A stretch of DNA of 28,628 nucleotides from a virus, in the IMG/VR virus record IMGVR_UViG_3300042923_000265, positions 1 through 28,628 of that record. One strand, given 5' to 3'. A program made the position numbers and the translations under genes. Numbering within the stretch: position 1 is the stretch's first letter; each line of letters opens with the position of its first letter. This document shows, piece after piece, positions 15,784 to 22,965 of this stretch. The notes beneath the pieces were generated by a model. It worked only from the letters and a program-made list of their open reading frames with translations, made no database searches and was not told the DNA's origin.

Positions 15784-16368
15784 GTGGCAAGAGATGAATT
15801 TTGCGATAAATGTGAACTGATCGAAGAATGCAATCGATTAAAAATAGAATGTAATGCTCTGAATGCTTTATGCAAAATAGGCATAACAGAAGATAGACAG
15901 CGTAAAAGAGAATTAATTATTGAATATGCTAAACAACTAGATATTATAGAATATGAAACTTCTAAAGAACTACAAGAATTAGGAAAAAAAGTTATTTCAC
16001 ATGTTCAGGAATTAAACTTTATAGATGAATTTGAAATAAGAGTTGGATATGTCATTAGTTATGAAGCTAAAAAGAAAGATGGTAGAACGGTAGCAGCAGA
16101 TTGTAGGAAAGTAACAAGTTCTTACCTAGCATATTTACCATTTGATTTTATAATAACTTTTTATGAGCCTAATATGTCTTACATGACTGATAACCAAAAG
16201 AAAATTTTGATGATGCATGAATTAAAACATATAGAAATTGGCTATAGGGGATTAAAGATAAAACCACATGATATAGAAGATTTTGAAATAATATTAAAAG
16301 AATATGGTATAAATTGGAATGATTTTAATAAAGATGTTCCAGACATATTTAAGTTAAAAAGTGAGTAG
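15784..16368 (+). CDS. Putative phage metallopeptidase
   Basis: 194 residues from GTG 15784 after GGTGGGGTGAT. N-terminal cysteines C7, C10 and C16 (CDKCELIEEC) may bind metal. The main domain has LMMHELKHIEIG at 143-153: HELKH is an HExxH-like zinc site (H145, E146, H149), with HDIEDFE (162-168) as a probable third ligand region. This matches the phage metallopeptidase family usually found just before the small terminase. The substrate is unknown; a housekeeping or anti-host role is possible. Confidence 0.75.
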   Translation: MARDEFCDKCELIEECNRLKIECNALNALCKIGITEDRQRKRELIIEYAKQLDIIEYETSKELQELGKKVISHVQELNFIDEFEIRVGYVISYEAKKKDGRTVAADCRKVTSSYLAYLPFDFIITFYEPNMSYMTDNQKKILMMHELKHIEIGYRGLKIKPHDIEDFEIILKEYGINWNDFNKDVPDIFKLKSE

Positions 16369-16376
16369 GTGGTGTT

Positions 16377-16913
16377 ATGGAAAAGAAAAAGAAAACCACT
16401 AAAAGGAAAATAAAAAATAATACACAAACCGTCAGAGAATGGATACCTAGCGCACAATTGATAGCAATGGCAGAGATGCTTGCTGATCCTGCCGATAGAA
16501 GAACTAAAGGCGAAAAGATTAAAGATGCAGGACTGACGGAGAGAAATTTTTATCGTTGGATGAAAGATGAACGTTATATAAATTACATAAACAACATTGT
16601 TGATAAATATACTAATTCAGATTTGCCTGATGTATGGAAAGCCTTAATGCGCAAATGCAAGATGGGTGATACTACAGCCATTAAGTTGCTGTTTGATATA
16701 AAAGGCATGTTCCCTGAGTTTAAAAATAAGAAATGGTATCAAGAACAATGCTTAGAAATTGAACGTAAAAAACTTGCTATTATAGAAGCTAAAAACGGCA
16801 ATGGTGTTAATGTAATAGAAGAATCAAACAACAAAATGCTTACATTGGCTGATATGATAAATAATCCTTCTAAAGATAGATCAATGCAAGATTTTGAAAG
16901 CGAGGGTAATTGA
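16377..16913 (+). CDS. terS: Terminase small subunit
   Basis: 178 residues. Very basic start (EKKKKTTKRKIKNN), then IPSAQLIAMAEMLADPADRR, an HTH (KIKDAGLTERNFYRWMKDER) and a helical part, VWKALMRKCKMGDTTAIKLL and FDIKGMFPEF. This is the phBC6A51-type small terminase layout. The protein recognises the packaging site and loads TerL onto concatemeric DNA. The order metallopeptidase, TerS, then TerL is normal, except that three small genes and a GIY-YIG gene intervene here. Confidence 0.85.
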   Translation: MEKKKKTTKRKIKNNTQTVREWIPSAQLIAMAEMLADPADRRTKGEKIKDAGLTERNFYRWMKDERYINYINNIVDKYTNSDLPDVWKALMRKCKMGDTTAIKLLFDIKGMFPEFKNKKWYQEQCLEIERKKLAIIEAKNGNGVNVIEESNNKMLTLADMINNPSKDRSMQDFESEGN

Positions 16914-16914
16914 T

Positions 16915-17049
16915 ATGGAATCTTTTTTTTACAACGCTATACATATGACAAGAATGGAATGGCTTATTGAATACTGGTACATACATTTAGTATTAGCAAT
17001 TATTGCCGTTGGTTGTTGGGAATTTATCGAGAAAAAGTTAAGAGGATGA
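16915..17049 (+). CDS. Small membrane protein
   Basis: 44 residues starting two bases after the terS stop. Aromatic N-terminus (MESFFYNAIHMTRMEWLIEY), then the hydrophobic helix IHLVLAIIAVGCW and a basic end. GAGGG lies upstream within terS. Function unknown. Confidence 0.5.
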   Translation: MESFFYNAIHMTRMEWLIEYWYIHLVLAIIAVGCWEFIEKKLRG

Positions 17050-17054
17050 TATAG

Positions 17055-17234
17055 ATGAAAATAGTTAAGTTTACTAATGCAGAAAATAACAAACCACTAT
17101 ATTTAAACATAGATCATATAGTTTCTTTTGCTGAATCGGTAGAAGATAATCGAAAAACATATATTAAGGTAATTGGTGATTATTACCTTGTTAATGAAAA
17201 TATAGACGATGTATTATTTTTGGTTTCAGAATAA
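17055..17234 (+). CDS. Small FlbD-like phage protein
   Basis: 59 residues: MKIVKFTNAENNKPLYLNID, HIVSFAESVEDN, then YIKVIGDYYLVNENIDDVLF. The order (short strand, LYLNIDHIVSF, a beta hairpin and a C-terminal VxENxDDVxxxV helix) matches small FlbD-like proteins common in phages. Function unknown. AGAGGATGATATAG is the ribosome-binding site. Confidence 0.6.
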   Translation: MKIVKFTNAENNKPLYLNIDHIVSFAESVEDNRKTYIKVIGDYYLVNENIDDVLFLVSE

Positions 17235-17328
17235 ATATACAATGTTAACGAATAATATACATAAAAATGCTAAAATAAATGTGTTTTAATGAAAATATGT
17301 GAATAAATATTAAAAAGTAGGCGATTAT

Positions 17329-17589
17329 ATGAACAAAGCTATTAAATTATTACTTAATGATATTGAGAACTATAAAATAGAAATTGAAAGTTGTAACCGC
17401 CAAATTAAATTATTGCAAGAAAACTGTGTGCATAAGAACATGAAAGTTAGTCGTTATATTGACTATAAAACGATGTATGAAATAACGTGCCCTGAATGTG
17501 GTTATACATGTGTTTTAAGTTATTTGCAATATCAGATGATGTTTATTGAAAACTATGTGTCTGAAAGACAATGCATAAATAACGTATAA
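17329..17589 (+). CDS. Small zinc-ribbon-like protein
   Basis: 86 residues. An N-terminal coiled coil (AIKLLLNDIENYKIEIESCN) is followed by a probable zinc site: C33 and H35 (ENCVHKN), then C54 and C57 (TCPECGYTC). It has AGTAGGCGAT upstream. It may bind nucleic acid; function unknown. Confidence 0.6.
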   Translation: MNKAIKLLLNDIENYKIEIESCNRQIKLLQENCVHKNMKVSRYIDYKTMYEITCPECGYTCVLSYLQYQMMFIENYVSERQCINNV

Positions 17590-17670
17590 CACCTCTAAAT
17601 ATACAATTTGTATTTAAAATATAGTACAAAAATAGCAATAAACCTGCAAACGCTTATAAACTCTATAAAA

Positions 17671-17705
17671 ATTACTTCCTATAATGATACTTTATCGGAA
17701 GTAAT
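17671..17705. promoter_or_regulatory. Palindrome around a -10 box before the GIY-YIG gene
   Basis: ATTACTTCC (17671-17679) and GGAAGTAAT (17697-17705) are a perfect 9-bp inverted repeat. TATAAT (17680-17685) begins right after the left arm. There is no T-run, so an operator or mRNA hairpin is more likely than a terminator. Confidence 0.5.
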
Positions 17706-17734
17706 AATATTTCTTAATTGGTTGGAGGGATTTA

Positions 17735-18301
17735 GTGCAAGAGAAAAGAAAAAGAATAAAAAAATCATATCTAAATGAATTAAGACTTATAAATAAAAAG
17801 CATTGCCCTATTTGCAATAAAATTAAAAACTTAAATGAATTTAGAAATAGCTTTTGCATAGAATGCAGTAGGGAATATAACCGTAAAGAATACGCTGCTA
17901 ACAAAGAAAAATATCACGATAGATACATAGCGCGATATAGTAAGAAAGAGTATTTTGTTTATAAATTTCTTAATAAATACAATCAAACCATATACATAGG
18001 AAAAACTAAGAGATTAAAAGCTAGAATGATATCACACTTTAGAACAGATGGACATTTGCCGAGCGAGTGCTACGACAATGTAACATCTGTTTTTTATTGT
18101 CCATTACCAACTAAAATAGACATGGAAATATATGAGATATATTTGATAGATAAGATTAGACCACGATTTAATACGATTTATATCTATGAAAAAAATGAAG
18201 TATCAAACATTGTCTTGCCTGATTTGCAATGGCAAAAATACAAGGGATTTTCAAAGCTTTATAGTGTTGATGATTCTGGAGGTGATCTCGCCCTTGGCTA
18301 A
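17735..18301 (+). CDS. GIY-YIG homing-type endonuclease
   Basis: 188 residues from GTG 17735, with GGAGGGA upstream. An N-terminal zinc finger (C24PIC27 and C41IEC44) precedes the catalytic domain: VYKFLN (75-80) and IYIGKT (86-91) are the GIY-YIG strands, R97 in RLKARMISHF the conserved Arg, and E131/E134 in MEIYEIYLIDKIRPRFN the metal-binding Glu. Phage GIY-YIG enzymes of this type spread by cutting related genomes near their own position. It overlaps the start of terL by 8 bases and holds the terL ribosome-binding site, so it sits beside its probable target gene. Confidence 0.85.
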   Translation: MQEKRKRIKKSYLNELRLINKKHCPICNKIKNLNEFRNSFCIECSREYNRKEYAANKEKYHDRYIARYSKKEYFVYKFLNKYNQTIYIGKTKRLKARMISHFRTDGHLPSECYDNVTSVFYCPLPTKIDMEIYEIYLIDKIRPRFNTIYIYEKNEVSNIVLPDLQWQKYKGFSKLYSVDDSGGDLALG

Positions 18302-19597
18302 CTATTCTAACTTTTGTGAGAAGCAAGCTAATTACATAAAACAATGCTTAATTCCTAATAACTGGTTAAATGTTGCTGAGGGTGGTTAGGTAAACGTGCT
18401 TCGAAAAACGTCATAAACATCATTGCATGGTGTGCCATAATAGAAAACCATCCAGACAAACTCCATTTAGCCGCTGGTGTATCGGTAGCAACTGCTAAAC
18501 TTAATATTATTGATAGCAATGGGTTCGGAGTGCTTAACTACTTTAAGGGTCGTTGTAGGCAAGGAAAGTATCAAGATAAAGATGCGTTGATTGTTCAAAC
18601 AGTCAACGGCGAAAAAGTTATACTTATCAGTGGTGGTGGTAAAAACGGTGATGAAAGATTTATTAAAGGGTTAACACTTGGAAGTGCTTATATATCCGAA
18701 GCTAATGAGTGTGCTCAATCGTTTATTAAGGAAGTTTTTGACCGTACCATATCAAGTTCACTACGCAAGATATTATTCGATTTAAATCCTAAAGCCGAAT
18801 TACATTATTTTTATGTTGAAATATTAAATATACATGAAACTAACAATAAAAAATATCCTAGTTATGGTTACAATTACGCACATTTTACCATACATGATAA
18901 TCTTAGTTTATCATCTGATAAAATACGCGAAATACTTCGCACGTACAATAAAAAATCAATATGGTATCAACGTGATATACTTGGCCTTCGCAAAAATGCA
19001 GAAGGTCTTATTTATGATATGTGGGACGAAGAAGAAAACTCCTATGATGATGAAACAAGGCCGTTAAACTTAGAACGAATTTCAAGACATTACGTATCTA
19101 TTGATTATGGGACACAAAATCCTATGGCGTTTATGAAAATATATGATGATGGTAAAACATTATGGTTTGATGAAGAATATTATTATTCGGGCCGTACAGA
19201 AAGCGCACAGAAAACCGATGCACAGTATGCAGATGATTTAGAGAATTTTATCGGTAAAGATAATATTGGGCGTATTAAATCGCTTTCAGGATGCATTATT
19301 GATCCATCGGCAGCTAGTTTTAAAGCTGAATGCAATCAAAGACATATAAGAACCAAAGATGCTGATAATGCGGTTTTAGATGGTATACATATGGTTGCAA
19401 GTATGATACAGAAACGTTTAATACGAGTGCATAAACGATGTACTAATTTTAGGTTGGAAGTATCAAGCTATATTTGGGATGAGAAAAAAGGCAAGAATGG
19501 CGAAGATGTTCCTTTAAAAGAAAATGATCACTGTATGGATTTAACACGATATCTAGTAAAAACGGTAATATCACCTAGAAGAATAGCTAATAGTTAA
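18294..19597 (+). CDS. terL: Terminase large subunit, interrupted by a 5-nt frame break in Walker A
   Basis: Starts at TTG 18294 after GGAGGTGATC. The first 31 codons end KQANYIKQCL, then NNWLNVAEGG and TAG (18387). The frame continues after 5 extra bases as KRASKNVINIIAWC at 18392, so joined parts give EGGKRASKN, the Walker A loop, and a normal length of about 432 residues. Walker B region is GSAYISEANEC. The C-terminal nuclease has HYVSIDYGTQNP, IIDPSAASF and ENDHCMDLTRY. TerL drives DNA into the prohead and cuts it. Conventional calling would report only 18530-19597. Either the gene is mutated, or a recoding event (GGT hop over TAG) rescues it. Confidence 0.85.
18384..18391 (+). other. Frame-break site in terL (GGT-TA-GGT)
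   Basis: Codon GGT (18384-18386) is followed at once by TAG. A second GGT (18389-18391) overlaps the G of the stop and is in the downstream frame. A 5-base hop from GGT to GGT would yield the exact uninterrupted Walker A. Confidence 0.7.
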
Positions 19598-19605
19598 GGA
19601 GGTCG

Positions 19606-21084
19606 ATGCTGCACATGAAGAAAAGAAACAGAAATATAAAGGCAGCTGATAACAAAGTGCAGCAACCTGAACGAAAGCAAAAGGCTTATGATGCGTTTGC
19701 GAATGCTGCCGCTAGAACTGGTTTTGGGACAAACTCACTTATGGAATCAACTGAATATCCATTAGTACGGTTAACTCGTAATTACCAGTTAATGCAAAGC
19801 CTTTATCGTAGTCATTGGATTGTACGCAGAATCATAGATACAATTCCAGAAGATTGCTGTAAGAATTGGTATACGGTTAAAACACAGATTGCACCTGATT
19901 TATTAGATAGATTTAGAAAAACAGAAAAGAAAACAAGTACTAAAGCTAAAATATTAGAAGCAATGAAATGGGGGCGGTTGTACGGTGGTGCAGCCGCTAT
20001 TGTTTTAATTGAGGGACATGAGGATATACTAGATCAACCTTTGGATTATGAAACAATTTTACCCGGTAGTTATTGTGGTTTATTGGTTCGTGACCGTTGG
20101 TCTGGAATTTCACCGGGGACTAATTTAGTAGAAGATCCAAGAGATGTTGAATATGGTTTACCTGAAGATTATCGTGTGACTACAAATGACGGCAAGGTAT
20201 TCACAGTACATCATTCACGTGTATTACGATTTATTGGTCGCGATGTGCCATTTTGGGAGAAACAAGCGGAAGTAATGTGGGGAGTATCGGAAATTGAACA
20301 TATTTACGATGAACTTCGCAAACGTGATAACACATCATGGAACATTGCTAACTTGATTTTTAGAGCATATCTAATTACACTTAAAATGAAAGACTTAGAT
20401 CAAATATTAGCTATTGGTGATGAACAGGCACAAAAAGACTTATATAACATTGTACAAGCACAAAATTGGCTCATGAGCAACCAAGGCATGTTGGCGTTAG
20501 GTGCTGACGACGCACTAGATTCTAAAGCGTATTCATTCGCTGGACTTAGTGACGTATACGAACAATTCATGATGGATATATCAGGAGCGGCAGAAATACC
20601 AGCTACTAAACTGTTTGGTCGTTCACCTGCCGGAATGAATGCAACTGGCGAATCTGATTTACAGATTTATTATGATAGTATTAGTCAGAAACAAGAATCA
20701 ACCCTTTCGCCCGTAATTGATAAGCTATTACCGATTATGGCATTAAGCGAATGGGGATACATCCCTGATGATTTAGATTATGACTTTAATCCAATTGCAA
20801 GCATATCACAGAAAGATAAAACTGATTTAGGTTCTAGGTCTGCTGAAACTATTGGCGGTGCATTTGATCGTGGATTAATTAGTCAAAAGATAGCATTAAA
20901 AGAACTTCGCCAACAATCAGAAATTACAGGAATGTTTACCAATATTACAGATGAAGATATTGAAAATGCTGACGATGAAGTTCAGATGCCCGGAGAGGTA
21001 GGAATGTTTAATGACATGGAAACCACAACGCCGGATAGAGACGGATTACCAGAAGCTACTAACGAACCTATTCAACCAATTTAG
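19606..21084 (+). CDS. Portal protein (DUF1073 family)
   Basis: 492 residues, start at ATG 19606 (or 19615) after AAGGAGGT. YPLVRLTRNYQLMQSLYRSH, WIVRRIIDTIPEDCCKNWY, WGRLYGGAAAIVLIEG, VHHSRVLRFIGRDVPFWE and PATKLFGRSPAGMNATGESD are the conserved landmarks of the DUF1073 portal family. Twelve copies form the ring through which DNA enters the capsid and to which TerL docks. The C-terminal tail is acidic and variable. Family size is about 450-500. It follows terL by 8 bases and overlaps the minor head gene. Confidence 0.9.
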   Translation: MLHMKKRNRNIKAADNKVQQPERKQKAYDAFANAAARTGFGTNSLMESTEYPLVRLTRNYQLMQSLYRSHWIVRRIIDTIPEDCCKNWYTVKTQIAPDLLDRFRKTEKKTSTKAKILEAMKWGRLYGGAAAIVLIEGHEDILDQPLDYETILPGSYCGLLVRDRWSGISPGTNLVEDPRDVEYGLPEDYRVTTNDGKVFTVHHSRVLRFIGRDVPFWEKQAEVMWGVSEIEHIYDELRKRDNTSWNIANLIFRAYLITLKMKDLDQILAIGDEQAQKDLYNIVQAQNWLMSNQGMLALGADDALDSKAYSFAGLSDVYEQFMMDISGAAEIPATKLFGRSPAGMNATGESDLQIYYDSISQKQESTLSPVIDKLLPIMALSEWGYIPDDLDYDFNPIASISQKDKTDLGSRSAETIGGAFDRGLISQKIALKELRQQSEITGMFTNITDEDIENADDEVQMPGEVGMFNDMETTTPDRDGLPEATNEPIQPI

Positions 21085-21853
21085 TACTCAGATAATAACC
21101 TCTCGTAAACGTGATGCAATTATGAATATGGCAAATAAAATGATTAAATCAAAATGGTTTAAAGATTATGCTACAACAGCAGCTTATCGAATGATAACGA
21201 TGACTCGCATAGATACGGCTAAGTCATGGCGTTCAGCCGCTAGAAAATCAACACATGGTAAAGAAGTATTTGAATTACTTCGCAATGAAACAGATAACGA
21301 TATGATGTTTCAAAGTTTACTTGAAAGAAACGTACATTATATTAAATCAGCACCAATTGATATGGCTGAACAAATGGTTGAACATATATCAGAAGCACAA
21401 ATTACAGGTAGACGACCAGAACAGATTGCTAGTGAATTAAAAGAGCTATTCCCACACATGACTAAGGGTAAAGCTCAATTGATTGCTAGAACTGAATCTG
21501 CAAAGGCATCATCTGAACTAGTGCAATCTAGAGCAGAACGATTAGGCTTTAACTGGTATATATGGAGAGCCATAGGGCATGAAAATAGAGGAAATGGTAA
21601 ATATGGCGATGGTAGAGTCCGTAAATCTCATGCTTATATGGATGGTGTCTTAGTTAATTATAATGATCCTCCTAGTCCAGAAGCATTAATCGGCATAGCG
21701 TCATATGGTCACTACAATGCAGGCGAAATATTTAATTGTAGATGCTTTGCAAGTGTAGTATTTGATATTAACGAAATATCTTTTCCACATAAAGTTTATC
21801 ATGCAGGTAAAATTCAGATGATGACTAAAGCTAAATTCAAGGAGATTATGTAG
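21011..21853 (+). CDS. Minor head protein (phage Mu F-like / SPP1 gp7-like)
   Basis: 280 residues, starting at ATG 21011 inside the portal gene, a 74-base overlap with GGTAGGA upstream. N-terminus TWKPQRRIETDYQKLLTNLF; middle LIARTESAKASSELVQSRAE. The C-terminal signature is DGRVRKSHAYMDGVLVNYND, PPSPE and AGEIFNCRCFA, typical of Mu F-like head morphogenesis proteins. A few copies are packaged per head and associate with the portal or ejected DNA. The order portal then minor head is the usual one. Confidence 0.9.
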   Translation: MTWKPQRRIETDYQKLLTNLFNQFSTQIITSRKRDAIMNMANKMIKSKWFKDYATTAAYRMITMTRIDTAKSWRSAARKSTHGKEVFELLRNETDNDMMFQSLLERNVHYIKSAPIDMAEQMVEHISEAQITGRRPEQIASELKELFPHMTKGKAQLIARTESAKASSELVQSRAERLGFNWYIWRAIGHENRGNGKYGDGRVRKSHAYMDGVLVNYNDPPSPEALIGIASYGHYNAGEIFNCRCFASVVFDINEISFPHKVYHAGKIQMMTKAKFKEIM

Positions 21854-21855
21854 TT

Positions 21856-22200
21856 ATGAAAGTCGTTAGAATACTAGATGAATTCAGAGTTATTATTGAT
21901 TATGGATATAAACATGGTGCTAAAGAAGATGATATTTTAACAATAAAATCTAAAATAGGGATACCAATACATGATTGCGATACTCATGAATATTTAGGAA
22001 CGTATTTTAACGAAAAGGCAACAATATCTCTCTCGGTTATTTATGATAATATGTCAATTTGCGTAAATACAAAAACAAGCATATATTACGAACGGTTAAA
22101 CGTTAGCCATACACAGATTAGTTGTTGTGATAATGATAAAATAATTAATTTATGTGATCCAGTATATTTAATTGATAAAAATAGGAAATATATAGTATAA
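21856..22200 (+). CDS. Small beta-rich hypothetical protein
   Basis: 114 residues: VRILDEFRVIIDYGYKHGAK, EDDILTI, then ATISLSVIYDNMSICVNTKT. The IDEF-x-VIIDYG-x-KHG-x3-DDIL pattern is shared with small bacterial and phage proteins with a beta-barrel-like module, but I know no function. It follows the minor head gene by two bases. A structured RNA element follows its stop. Confidence 0.6.
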   Translation: MKVVRILDEFRVIIDYGYKHGAKEDDILTIKSKIGIPIHDCDTHEYLGTYFNEKATISLSVIYDNMSICVNTKTSIYYERLNVSHTQISCCDNDKIINLCDPVYLIDKNRKYIV

Positions 22201-22205
22201 TACAT

Positions 22206-22256
22206 GTGTGGCTAGGTTATGCAGACCGAACGGAGATAGCCTGTCTCCTGCCACAT
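22206..22256 (+). ncRNA. Compact structured RNA element between head genes
   Basis: Closing stem TGTGGC/GCCACA (22207-22212/22250-22255). Inside lie GGAGA-TAGCCTG-TCTCC (22232-22248) and, alternatively, GGCTA/TAGCC and GGT/ACC pairings across CTAGGTTATGCAGACCGAAC. It is GC-rich in an AT-rich surround and untranslated. It has no T-run, so it is not a terminator. It could be a translational switch, an RNA processing site or a packaged RNA signal. Confidence 0.5.
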
Positions 22257-22276
22257 TATATAAGGCAAATAATACT

Positions 22277-22290
22277 AAGGCGGTGTTATG
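22277..22290 (+). repeat. Junction repeat AAGGCGGTGTTATG, copy 1
   Basis: Fourteen bases containing Shine-Dalgarno and ATG. Identical to 22541-22554, bracketing the 87-residue gene. Confidence 0.75.
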
Positions 22291-22291
22291 A

Positions 22292-22555
22292 ATGTCGACA
22301 AGCGTTCTTGGCAATATGACTGATGAAGAAAAATTAAAGTTAAAGAAACAATGTGAATTTATTTTAAAAGGATGTTTTAGTGCAGATAATCCAGCAATAG
22401 TTAGTCCTGAAATGTACGATATGTTTGCTGAACTTGGGTTATGTGAACAAAGAGATAAGGTACCAACAATAAGCGATCCTAAATTAACAGAAAAAATTAT
22501 AGCTGACCTTGAAAAATCTTTACTTTGTACATCTGCTGATAAGGCGGTGTTATGA
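22292..22555 (+). CDS. Small hypothetical protein in head module
   Basis: 87 residues. MSTSVLGNMTDEEKLKLKKQ, then CEFILKGCFSADNPAIVSPE and MYDMFAELGLCEQRDK. Helical; three cysteines; no family recognised. ATG at 22292 is used; ATG at 22288 is out of frame. It lies between two copies of a 14-base junction and ends in ATGA overlapping the next gene. Confidence 0.6.
   Translation: MSTSVLGNMTDEEKLKLKKQCEFILKGCFSADNPAIVSPEMYDMFAELGLCEQRDKVPTISDPKLTEKIIADLEKSLLCTSADKAVL
22541..22554 (+). repeat. Junction repeat AAGGCGGTGTTATG, copy 2
   Basis: Exact copy of 22277-22290 at the next gene start. Confidence 0.75.
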
Positions 22556-22965
22556 TGTTTAATAATGGATTTTATAAAGTTGATAATGAAAAAATAAAGA
22601 AAGCTAAACAGTCAATTAATTCTCAAAGACAAGGTTTATCACAAGCAAATACAGACGGAGAAGAAAAATTCATAAAAACAGTAACAGTTGAATTAGAAGG
22701 TAATTTACCACCATATCGTGCGGCGTGGTTTTTATATTCTAAAGTTAATGATAAAGATGAAATAATAAATCCAAATCAAATTGATTCATATATTATAATT
22801 AGAGATATAACTGAACAAGAAGCAATGGAAAAACTTGAAACGCTTAAAGATATAGAATTATATACCGCAATTAAAAATATTGGAACTGTAAAATGTAAAT
22901 TTTTAGATTATAAATATGATGAACATTATTATGAAATTAAAAATGGGAATTTGGTAATGTTATGA
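22552..22965 (+). CDS. Hypothetical protein
   Basis: 137 residues starting in ATGA. A polar N-terminus (NEKIKKAKQSINSQRQGLSQ) precedes a mixed strand/helix domain (FIKTVTVELEGNLPPYRAAW, TEQEAMEKLETLKDIE, YYEIKNGNLVML). No family recognised. It ends in ATGA over the next start. Confidence 0.6.
   Translation: MMFNNGFYKVDNEKIKKAKQSINSQRQGLSQANTDGEEKFIKTVTVELEGNLPPYRAAWFLYSKVNDKDEIINPNQIDSYIIIRDITEQEAMEKLETLKDIELYTAIKNIGTVKCKFLDYKYDEHYYEIKNGNLVML

Follow-up and report, generated by a model that had tools for sequence, protein, structure and literature searches.

This locus raises the question of how a phage reads its DNA-packaging motor gene, terL, when five extra bases, with a stop codon first, break the gene at the ATP-binding loop. 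The window (the whole stretch analysed; 28,628 nt, positions 1 to 28,628 of IMG/VR virus record IMGVR_UViG_3300042923_000265) reads, at Walker A of terL, GAG GGT GGT, then TAGGT, then AAA CGT. We consider it likely that TAGGT is a programmed recoding site passed by translational bypassing, and that the insert travels with, and probably shields terL from, a homing endonuclease; the hop, the fused product and the protective role are what we infer from the comparisons below. The features of the locus were as follows.

16377..16913, + strand: small-terminase-like gene with an HTH_Tnp_1_2 domain (Pfam PF13022, E 6.4e-15), in the position of terS of relatives
17735..18301, + strand: GIY-YIG homing-type endonuclease gene (ORF, 188 aa; Pfam PF01541, E 7.5e-9), overlapping the terL start by 8 nt
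18278..18285, + strand: terL ribosome binding site, GGAGGTGA
18294..18386, + strand: N-terminal part of terL, 31 codons up to ...NVAEGG, its translation conserved in intact relatives
18378..18385, + strand: purine-rich, Shine-Dalgarno-like GAGGGTGG made of Walker A codons, directly 5' of the break (putative role)
18384..18386, + strand: proposed take-off codon GGT (Gly)
18387..18391, + strand: 5-nt insert TAGGT, in-frame stop TAG first, recurring in relatives
18389..18391, + strand: proposed landing codon GGT, sharing the last base of the stop
18392..19597, + strand: remainder of terL from AAA (KRASKN...), 401 codons plus stop (Pfam Terminase_3, E 9.5e-6)
19606..21084, + strand: portal gene, intact, 3' of terL (Pfam PF06381, E 1.6e-113)

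Translation of terL starts at a TTG (18294) behind GGAGGTGA; the N-terminal frame (18294-18389) gives LANYSNFCEKQANYIKQCLIPNNWLNVAEGG and then the stop, with about 31 residues ahead of the break, and the remainder is open from AAA at 18392 to the stop at 19597 (KRASKNVINIIAW..., 401 aa). An earlier sequence-only reading had placed the split within Walker A (VAEGG-TAG at 18387-18389, KRASKN resuming at 18392), and its coordinates were correct. It had also proposed that deleting five bases repairs the gene; with TAGGT omitted, the product AEGGKRASKN is indeed the Walker A loop of the intact relatives L005, L007 and L097. The GGT-TAG-GGT layout that it described stood in part: the take-off codon, the stop and the matching GGT are present, but not as separate codons, since the string is GGT TAGGT AAA and the first G of the would-be landing codon is the last base of TAG. 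The neighboring portal and head genes, which it took to be undamaged, were found intact 3' of terL (Pfam). The ORF overlapping the terL start, absent from that reading, is the GIY-YIG endonuclease. A second intact terL was sought, and only one TerL copy was present in the window record; the 69-kb contig of L090 has one distant extra TerL, the sole such case.

The same insert was present on contig IMGVR_UViG_3300042934_000367, which is 99.98% identical to the window over 5,846 nt. Alleles of the window's TerL family were collected partly by similarity to the downstream part and partly by sequence patterns. Among 65 distinct alleles, the gap at the Walker A junction was 0 in 53 and exactly +5 nt in 12, a share that is not a frequency, as the pattern-found alleles were chosen for +5; no other gap length occurred at the junction, with 0-60 nt allowed. 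Alleles reached by protein similarity alone likewise had gaps of 0 or +5 only. Thus, 11 other alleles have 5-nt, stop-bearing inserts at, or one codon off, the window junction, the presence in related phages for which the sequence-only reading had called; its opposing case, close relatives all uninterrupted, was the reverse of what was found. An assembly or sequencing error in the window, conceivable for a sequence whose source is an IMG/VR virus record, is extremely improbable: a second record has the same insert, and many assemblies, and isolate genomes too, have related but different inserts at this very codon. The simple alternative of a frameshift mutation or assembly error raised by the sequence-only reading fails on the same recurrence, and the insert at Walker A looks programmed rather than erroneous.

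In all 12 inserts, an in-frame stop is followed by two bases; TAG, TAA and TGA are each used, so the stop has been kept through base changes. Type A (9 alleles) has GGT, then TAGGT, TAGGC, TAAGC or TGAGC, then AAR; type B (L003, L004 and L092) has GGC AAR, then TGACT or TGACG, then CGN. The codon before the stop was GGT in 9/9 type A alleles versus 9/53 intact alleles (Fisher p 2.4e-6, uncorrected for kinship). The landing codon was AGC rather than GGY in three of the nine type A alleles (L093, L096 and L192); AGC would pair with the take-off tRNA at two of three positions. Type B inserts (AAR, TGACK, CGN) have no cognate landing codon. After the Lys codon, the type B insert TGACK forms a stop-start overlap (ATGA or GTGA), with AAGG six bases earlier.

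Several other candidates were tried at these loci. A 5-bp transposon footprint was rejected on the sequence, as the insert is not flanked by an exact duplication. The apparent long terL insert of L021, L022 and L053 proved to be none: their terL is complete (429 aa), and a short ORF comes after it. No tRNA, and so no phage-encoded special tRNA, was found in the window or in the examined parts of the other inserted loci. Interrupted terL genes were not evident among 83 and 391 related bacterial genomes, in which the frames that matched TerL best are of sufficient length to contain the N-terminal part. The TerL of L092 (minus strand) has, besides its Walker A insert, an intein-like insertion (CITGDTLIDT...GRIIHATDDHPILT) near the C terminus.

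Bypassing had been proposed earlier for the terminase of Streptomyces phage Hau3 (Smith et al. 2013, as given in the review PMC5009743). The Hau3 insert also sits in Walker A (KGWG, TTACTCCGGT, KDPLLA), with a Gly take-off codon (GGC) and a Gly landing codon (GGT), in an actinophage TerL family unrelated to that of the window. A scan at this site yielded 49 distinct inserted alleles, 4 to 16 nt in insert length and covering all three frame classes; the intact alleles, all distinct, number at least 106. A related gene occurs in 1,509 phage records, and among those listed nearly all were intact. The A-site codon was TTA (UUA) in 22 inserts, a stop in 21 and another codon in 6, giving a stop or UUA in 43/49. 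The landing codon was GGC, GGT or GGA in 42 inserts (a Gly landing matching a Gly take-off), AGC in 4 and another codon in 3. An in-frame stop was present in all 11 inserts of length 3n. When the distinct inserts were considered, 31/37 ended in GGN, for which shuffles expect 3.8 (31 was reached in 0/20,000). Where the A-site codon was a stop, the take-off codon was mostly GGT (16/21); where it was UUA, mostly GGC (15/22). The insert of L288 is TAGGT, identical to the five letters of the window. Isolated Streptomyces phages with a Walker A insert are Hau3, GreenWeasel and BroPlease. One actinophage allele (L272) has a 4-nt insert, AGGC, with no stop or UUA in the A site; this may be a real frameshift mutation.

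A Gly codon, a stop or slow codon, and a Gly codon before the Lys at which reading resumes, at variable distance, is the arrangement that bypassing with codon re-pairing predicts; of the mechanisms considered, no other predicts matching codons at variable distance. With its recurrent stop-bearing inserts and the Gly/Gly flanks of a second TerL family, the ribosome bypass suggested by the sequence-only reading is the best-supported explanation. The ribosome would read EGG as far as its second Gly (take-off GGU), with the stop then in the A site; the peptidyl-tRNA-Gly would release and slide 5 nt forward to the GGU overlapping the stop; and translation would restart at AAA, so that a full TerL with an unbroken Walker A (AEGGKRASKN) is made. 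Five nucleotides is the shortest hop that fits a stop and a Gly landing codon with one base shared. The wobble pair of take-off GGT with the usual tRNA-Gly may ease release. In both TerL families, the Walker A codons immediately before the P site are purine-rich and Shine-Dalgarno-like, and those upstream of the window site may drive the ribosome forward by pairing with it, as in the Hau3 proposal. There is a precedent in prfB, where a Shine-Dalgarno-like sequence before the P site drives forward slippage.

Three other ways of obtaining TerL from such alleles were weighed. If the ribosome shifted by -1 or +2 at the stop, the loop would gain one or two residues (EGG-LG-KRASKN or EGG-G-KRASKN in the window; EGGK-MT-R or EGGK-T-R in type B). 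One rule of this kind would serve both insert types, and the -1 frame always encodes Leu-(Gly/Ser) in type A and (Met/Val)-Thr in type B; nevertheless, GAGGGTGGTTAGG has no slippery heptamer (X XXY YYZ), the conserved P-loop would be lengthened, and the rule fails for the actinophage inserts, which fall into three frame classes and still keep the Gly landing codon. We regard such a shift as unlikely. Termination-reinitiation, by which the downstream part would be made separately and TerL would be two chains, is possible at the ATGA or GTGA overlaps of type B, with AAGG ahead of them; type A alleles, the window among them, do not allow it, as the usual start is missing from their junction (TTA replaces ATG/GTG). 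A gene split in this way would also be cut inside the ATP-binding loop, and the in-frame-length actinophage inserts with stops would be unaccounted for, making this quite improbable as an account of the locus. Removal of the insert from the RNA before translation, either as a very short intron-like segment or by editing, would not depend on a matching codon and so would fit type B, but an Rfam search found no credible intron or ribozyme in 16300-20200, we know of no system that takes out 5 nt, and the initial stop and final Gly codon of the insert would be left unexplained; our confidence in it is very low.

Purifying selection acts on both halves of the interrupted terL. Between L081 and L084, both inserted, omega was 0.06 for the N-terminal part and 0.11 for the C-terminal part (64 synonymous and 36 nonsynonymous changes); omega was 0.14 for the C-terminal parts of L084 and L085, and the window and L095 differ in that part by 15 synonymous changes and 1 nonsynonymous change. 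These values bear on the suggestion that the inserted alleles are dead or dying, left in defective prophages by homing endonuclease cleavage and inexact repair. The adjoining endonuclease genes and the patchy distribution with intact sisters are in keeping with decay, but selection on both halves, the fixed 5-nt length, a stop codon that survives base changes, the presence of such inserts in isolated phages and an allele abundant enough for assembly in two records all speak against it, and we give it little credence.

The distribution of the inserted state on the TerL tree requires 9 changes, of which at least 7 fall on well-supported branches, and intact sisters adjoin inserted alleles (L096/L120 and L192/L005), which argues for repeated gain, loss or transfer of the insert. 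Compared over window positions 18278-22594, L003 is 98.75% identical downstream, with a sharp swap at the terL start; the two do not share the type of endonuclease, the N-terminal part of TerL or the type of insert, a pattern that gene conversion around the insert site would be expected to leave.

The genes directly upstream of terL encode GIY-YIG endonucleases in the window and L005, NUMOD4-HNH proteins in L081, L084, L088 and L090, and HNH-AP2 proteins in L003, L004 and L192. Within the window's TerL family, a homing-type endonuclease was upstream of 8/12 inserted versus 1/53 intact alleles (p 8e-7); corrected for kinship, 3.2 pairs agreed and 0 disagreed (p 0.25, with few independent pairs). 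When the ORFs upstream of 52 intact alleles were scanned against Pfam without bias, a homing-type endonuclease was found in L005 only, where the gene is present and terL intact; the remaining ORFs were mostly small-terminase-like. In three inserted alleles (L085, L092 and L093), terL directly follows terS and there is no endonuclease gene, the state expected of an orphaned insert. In the actinophage family, HNH genes were directly upstream in about 10/46 inserted versus 1/46 intact alleles (p 0.007), a weaker link because some actinophage HNH genes are packaging parts. The insert would thus accompany a free-standing homing endonuclease whose gene lies directly upstream (GIY-YIG in the window), and would probably shield terL from it.

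The window site works like translational bypassing in a setting like that of T4 gene 60 with MobA, and we propose it as a candidate member of short-hop bypassing, with matching codons (GGT/GGT) and a stop (TAG) in the A site. A close likeness is the terminase of Hau3 and prophage StrepC.1, where the insert also lies in Walker A of TerL and both take-off and landing codons are Gly; in Hau3, purine-rich sequence also lies just upstream, and reading resumes at AAG. Hau3 differs in its 10-nt insert, UUA in the A site, other TerL family and Streptomyces host, whereas the window has 5 nt, TAG, a clostridial-type TerL family and an adjoining GIY-YIG gene; in the review's account, the Hau3 bypass was read as a use of the host's rare UUA codon (PMC5009743). 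T4 gene 60 likewise has a Gly take-off codon, an immediate UAG, a matched landing codon and a homing endonuclease gene directly upstream (PMC5009743), and its pairing of endonuclease (mobA) and bypass resembles that of GIY-YIG and insert here. Gene 60 is a topoisomerase gene with a 50-nt gap, a nascent-peptide signal and stem-loops; in the window, the fold of 18330-18450 was weaker than shuffles (z +1.36), with no T4-like take-off stem-loop. Because no stem-loop was seen and gene and gap differ, the site was not classed as the gene 60 type. Stop-hops in Escherichia coli are also short hops over a stop between matched codons (PMC5009743), but they are synthetic and in frame (9 nt for one residue), whereas that of the window would be natural, selected and out of frame. 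The byps of Magnusiomyces mitochondria are many short inserts tolerated by bypass, several imperfectly matched (PMC5009743); they differ in being mitochondrial, genome-wide and unconnected to one gene loop or to phage endonucleases.

The following is new as far as the literature searched shows: clostridial-type phages have 5-nt versions based on a stop codon, inserts recur in two TerL families, their Gly-stop-Gly-Lys design is consistent, and they are associated with endonuclease genes. Tentatively, and as a serious possibility rather than a firm claim, short bypass inserts with free-standing homing endonucleases may form a widespread class of mobile cassette that targets phage terminases at their Walker A codons; its origin or spread would have been repeated many times, in no fewer than two unrelated TerL families, among clostridial and actinobacterial phages; the endonuclease would cut the conserved terL loop of a rival, and the insert, tolerated by a hop of 5 to 16 nt, would immunize its carrier. 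If so, type B inserts would be recoded in a second way, one that does not depend on a matching codon. The alleles described here take the link between homing endonucleases and bypass from one example to a recurrent pattern. Knowledge of bypassing has so far come, in essence, from a single well-proved case in phages, T4 gene 60, together with the proposal for Hau3 and the mitochondria of yeasts. With about 60 natural alleles of an essential gene, varied in hop length, stop and landing codon, the rules of short hops could be read off and tested; some of these alleles belong to laboratory-grown phages. Annotation pipelines split or discard such probably functional terminases, as with that of GreenWeasel, deposited as three ORFs.

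BroPlease (L350) has the Walker A insert alone, without one in the Walker B region. A second probable bypass insert lies near Walker B in Hau3 (L230, approximately 2915-2945) and GreenWeasel (L349, approximately 2795-2825), where the sequence reads TCT, TTAACGGTCC, ACG, with a Ser take-off codon, UUA and a Ser landing codon.
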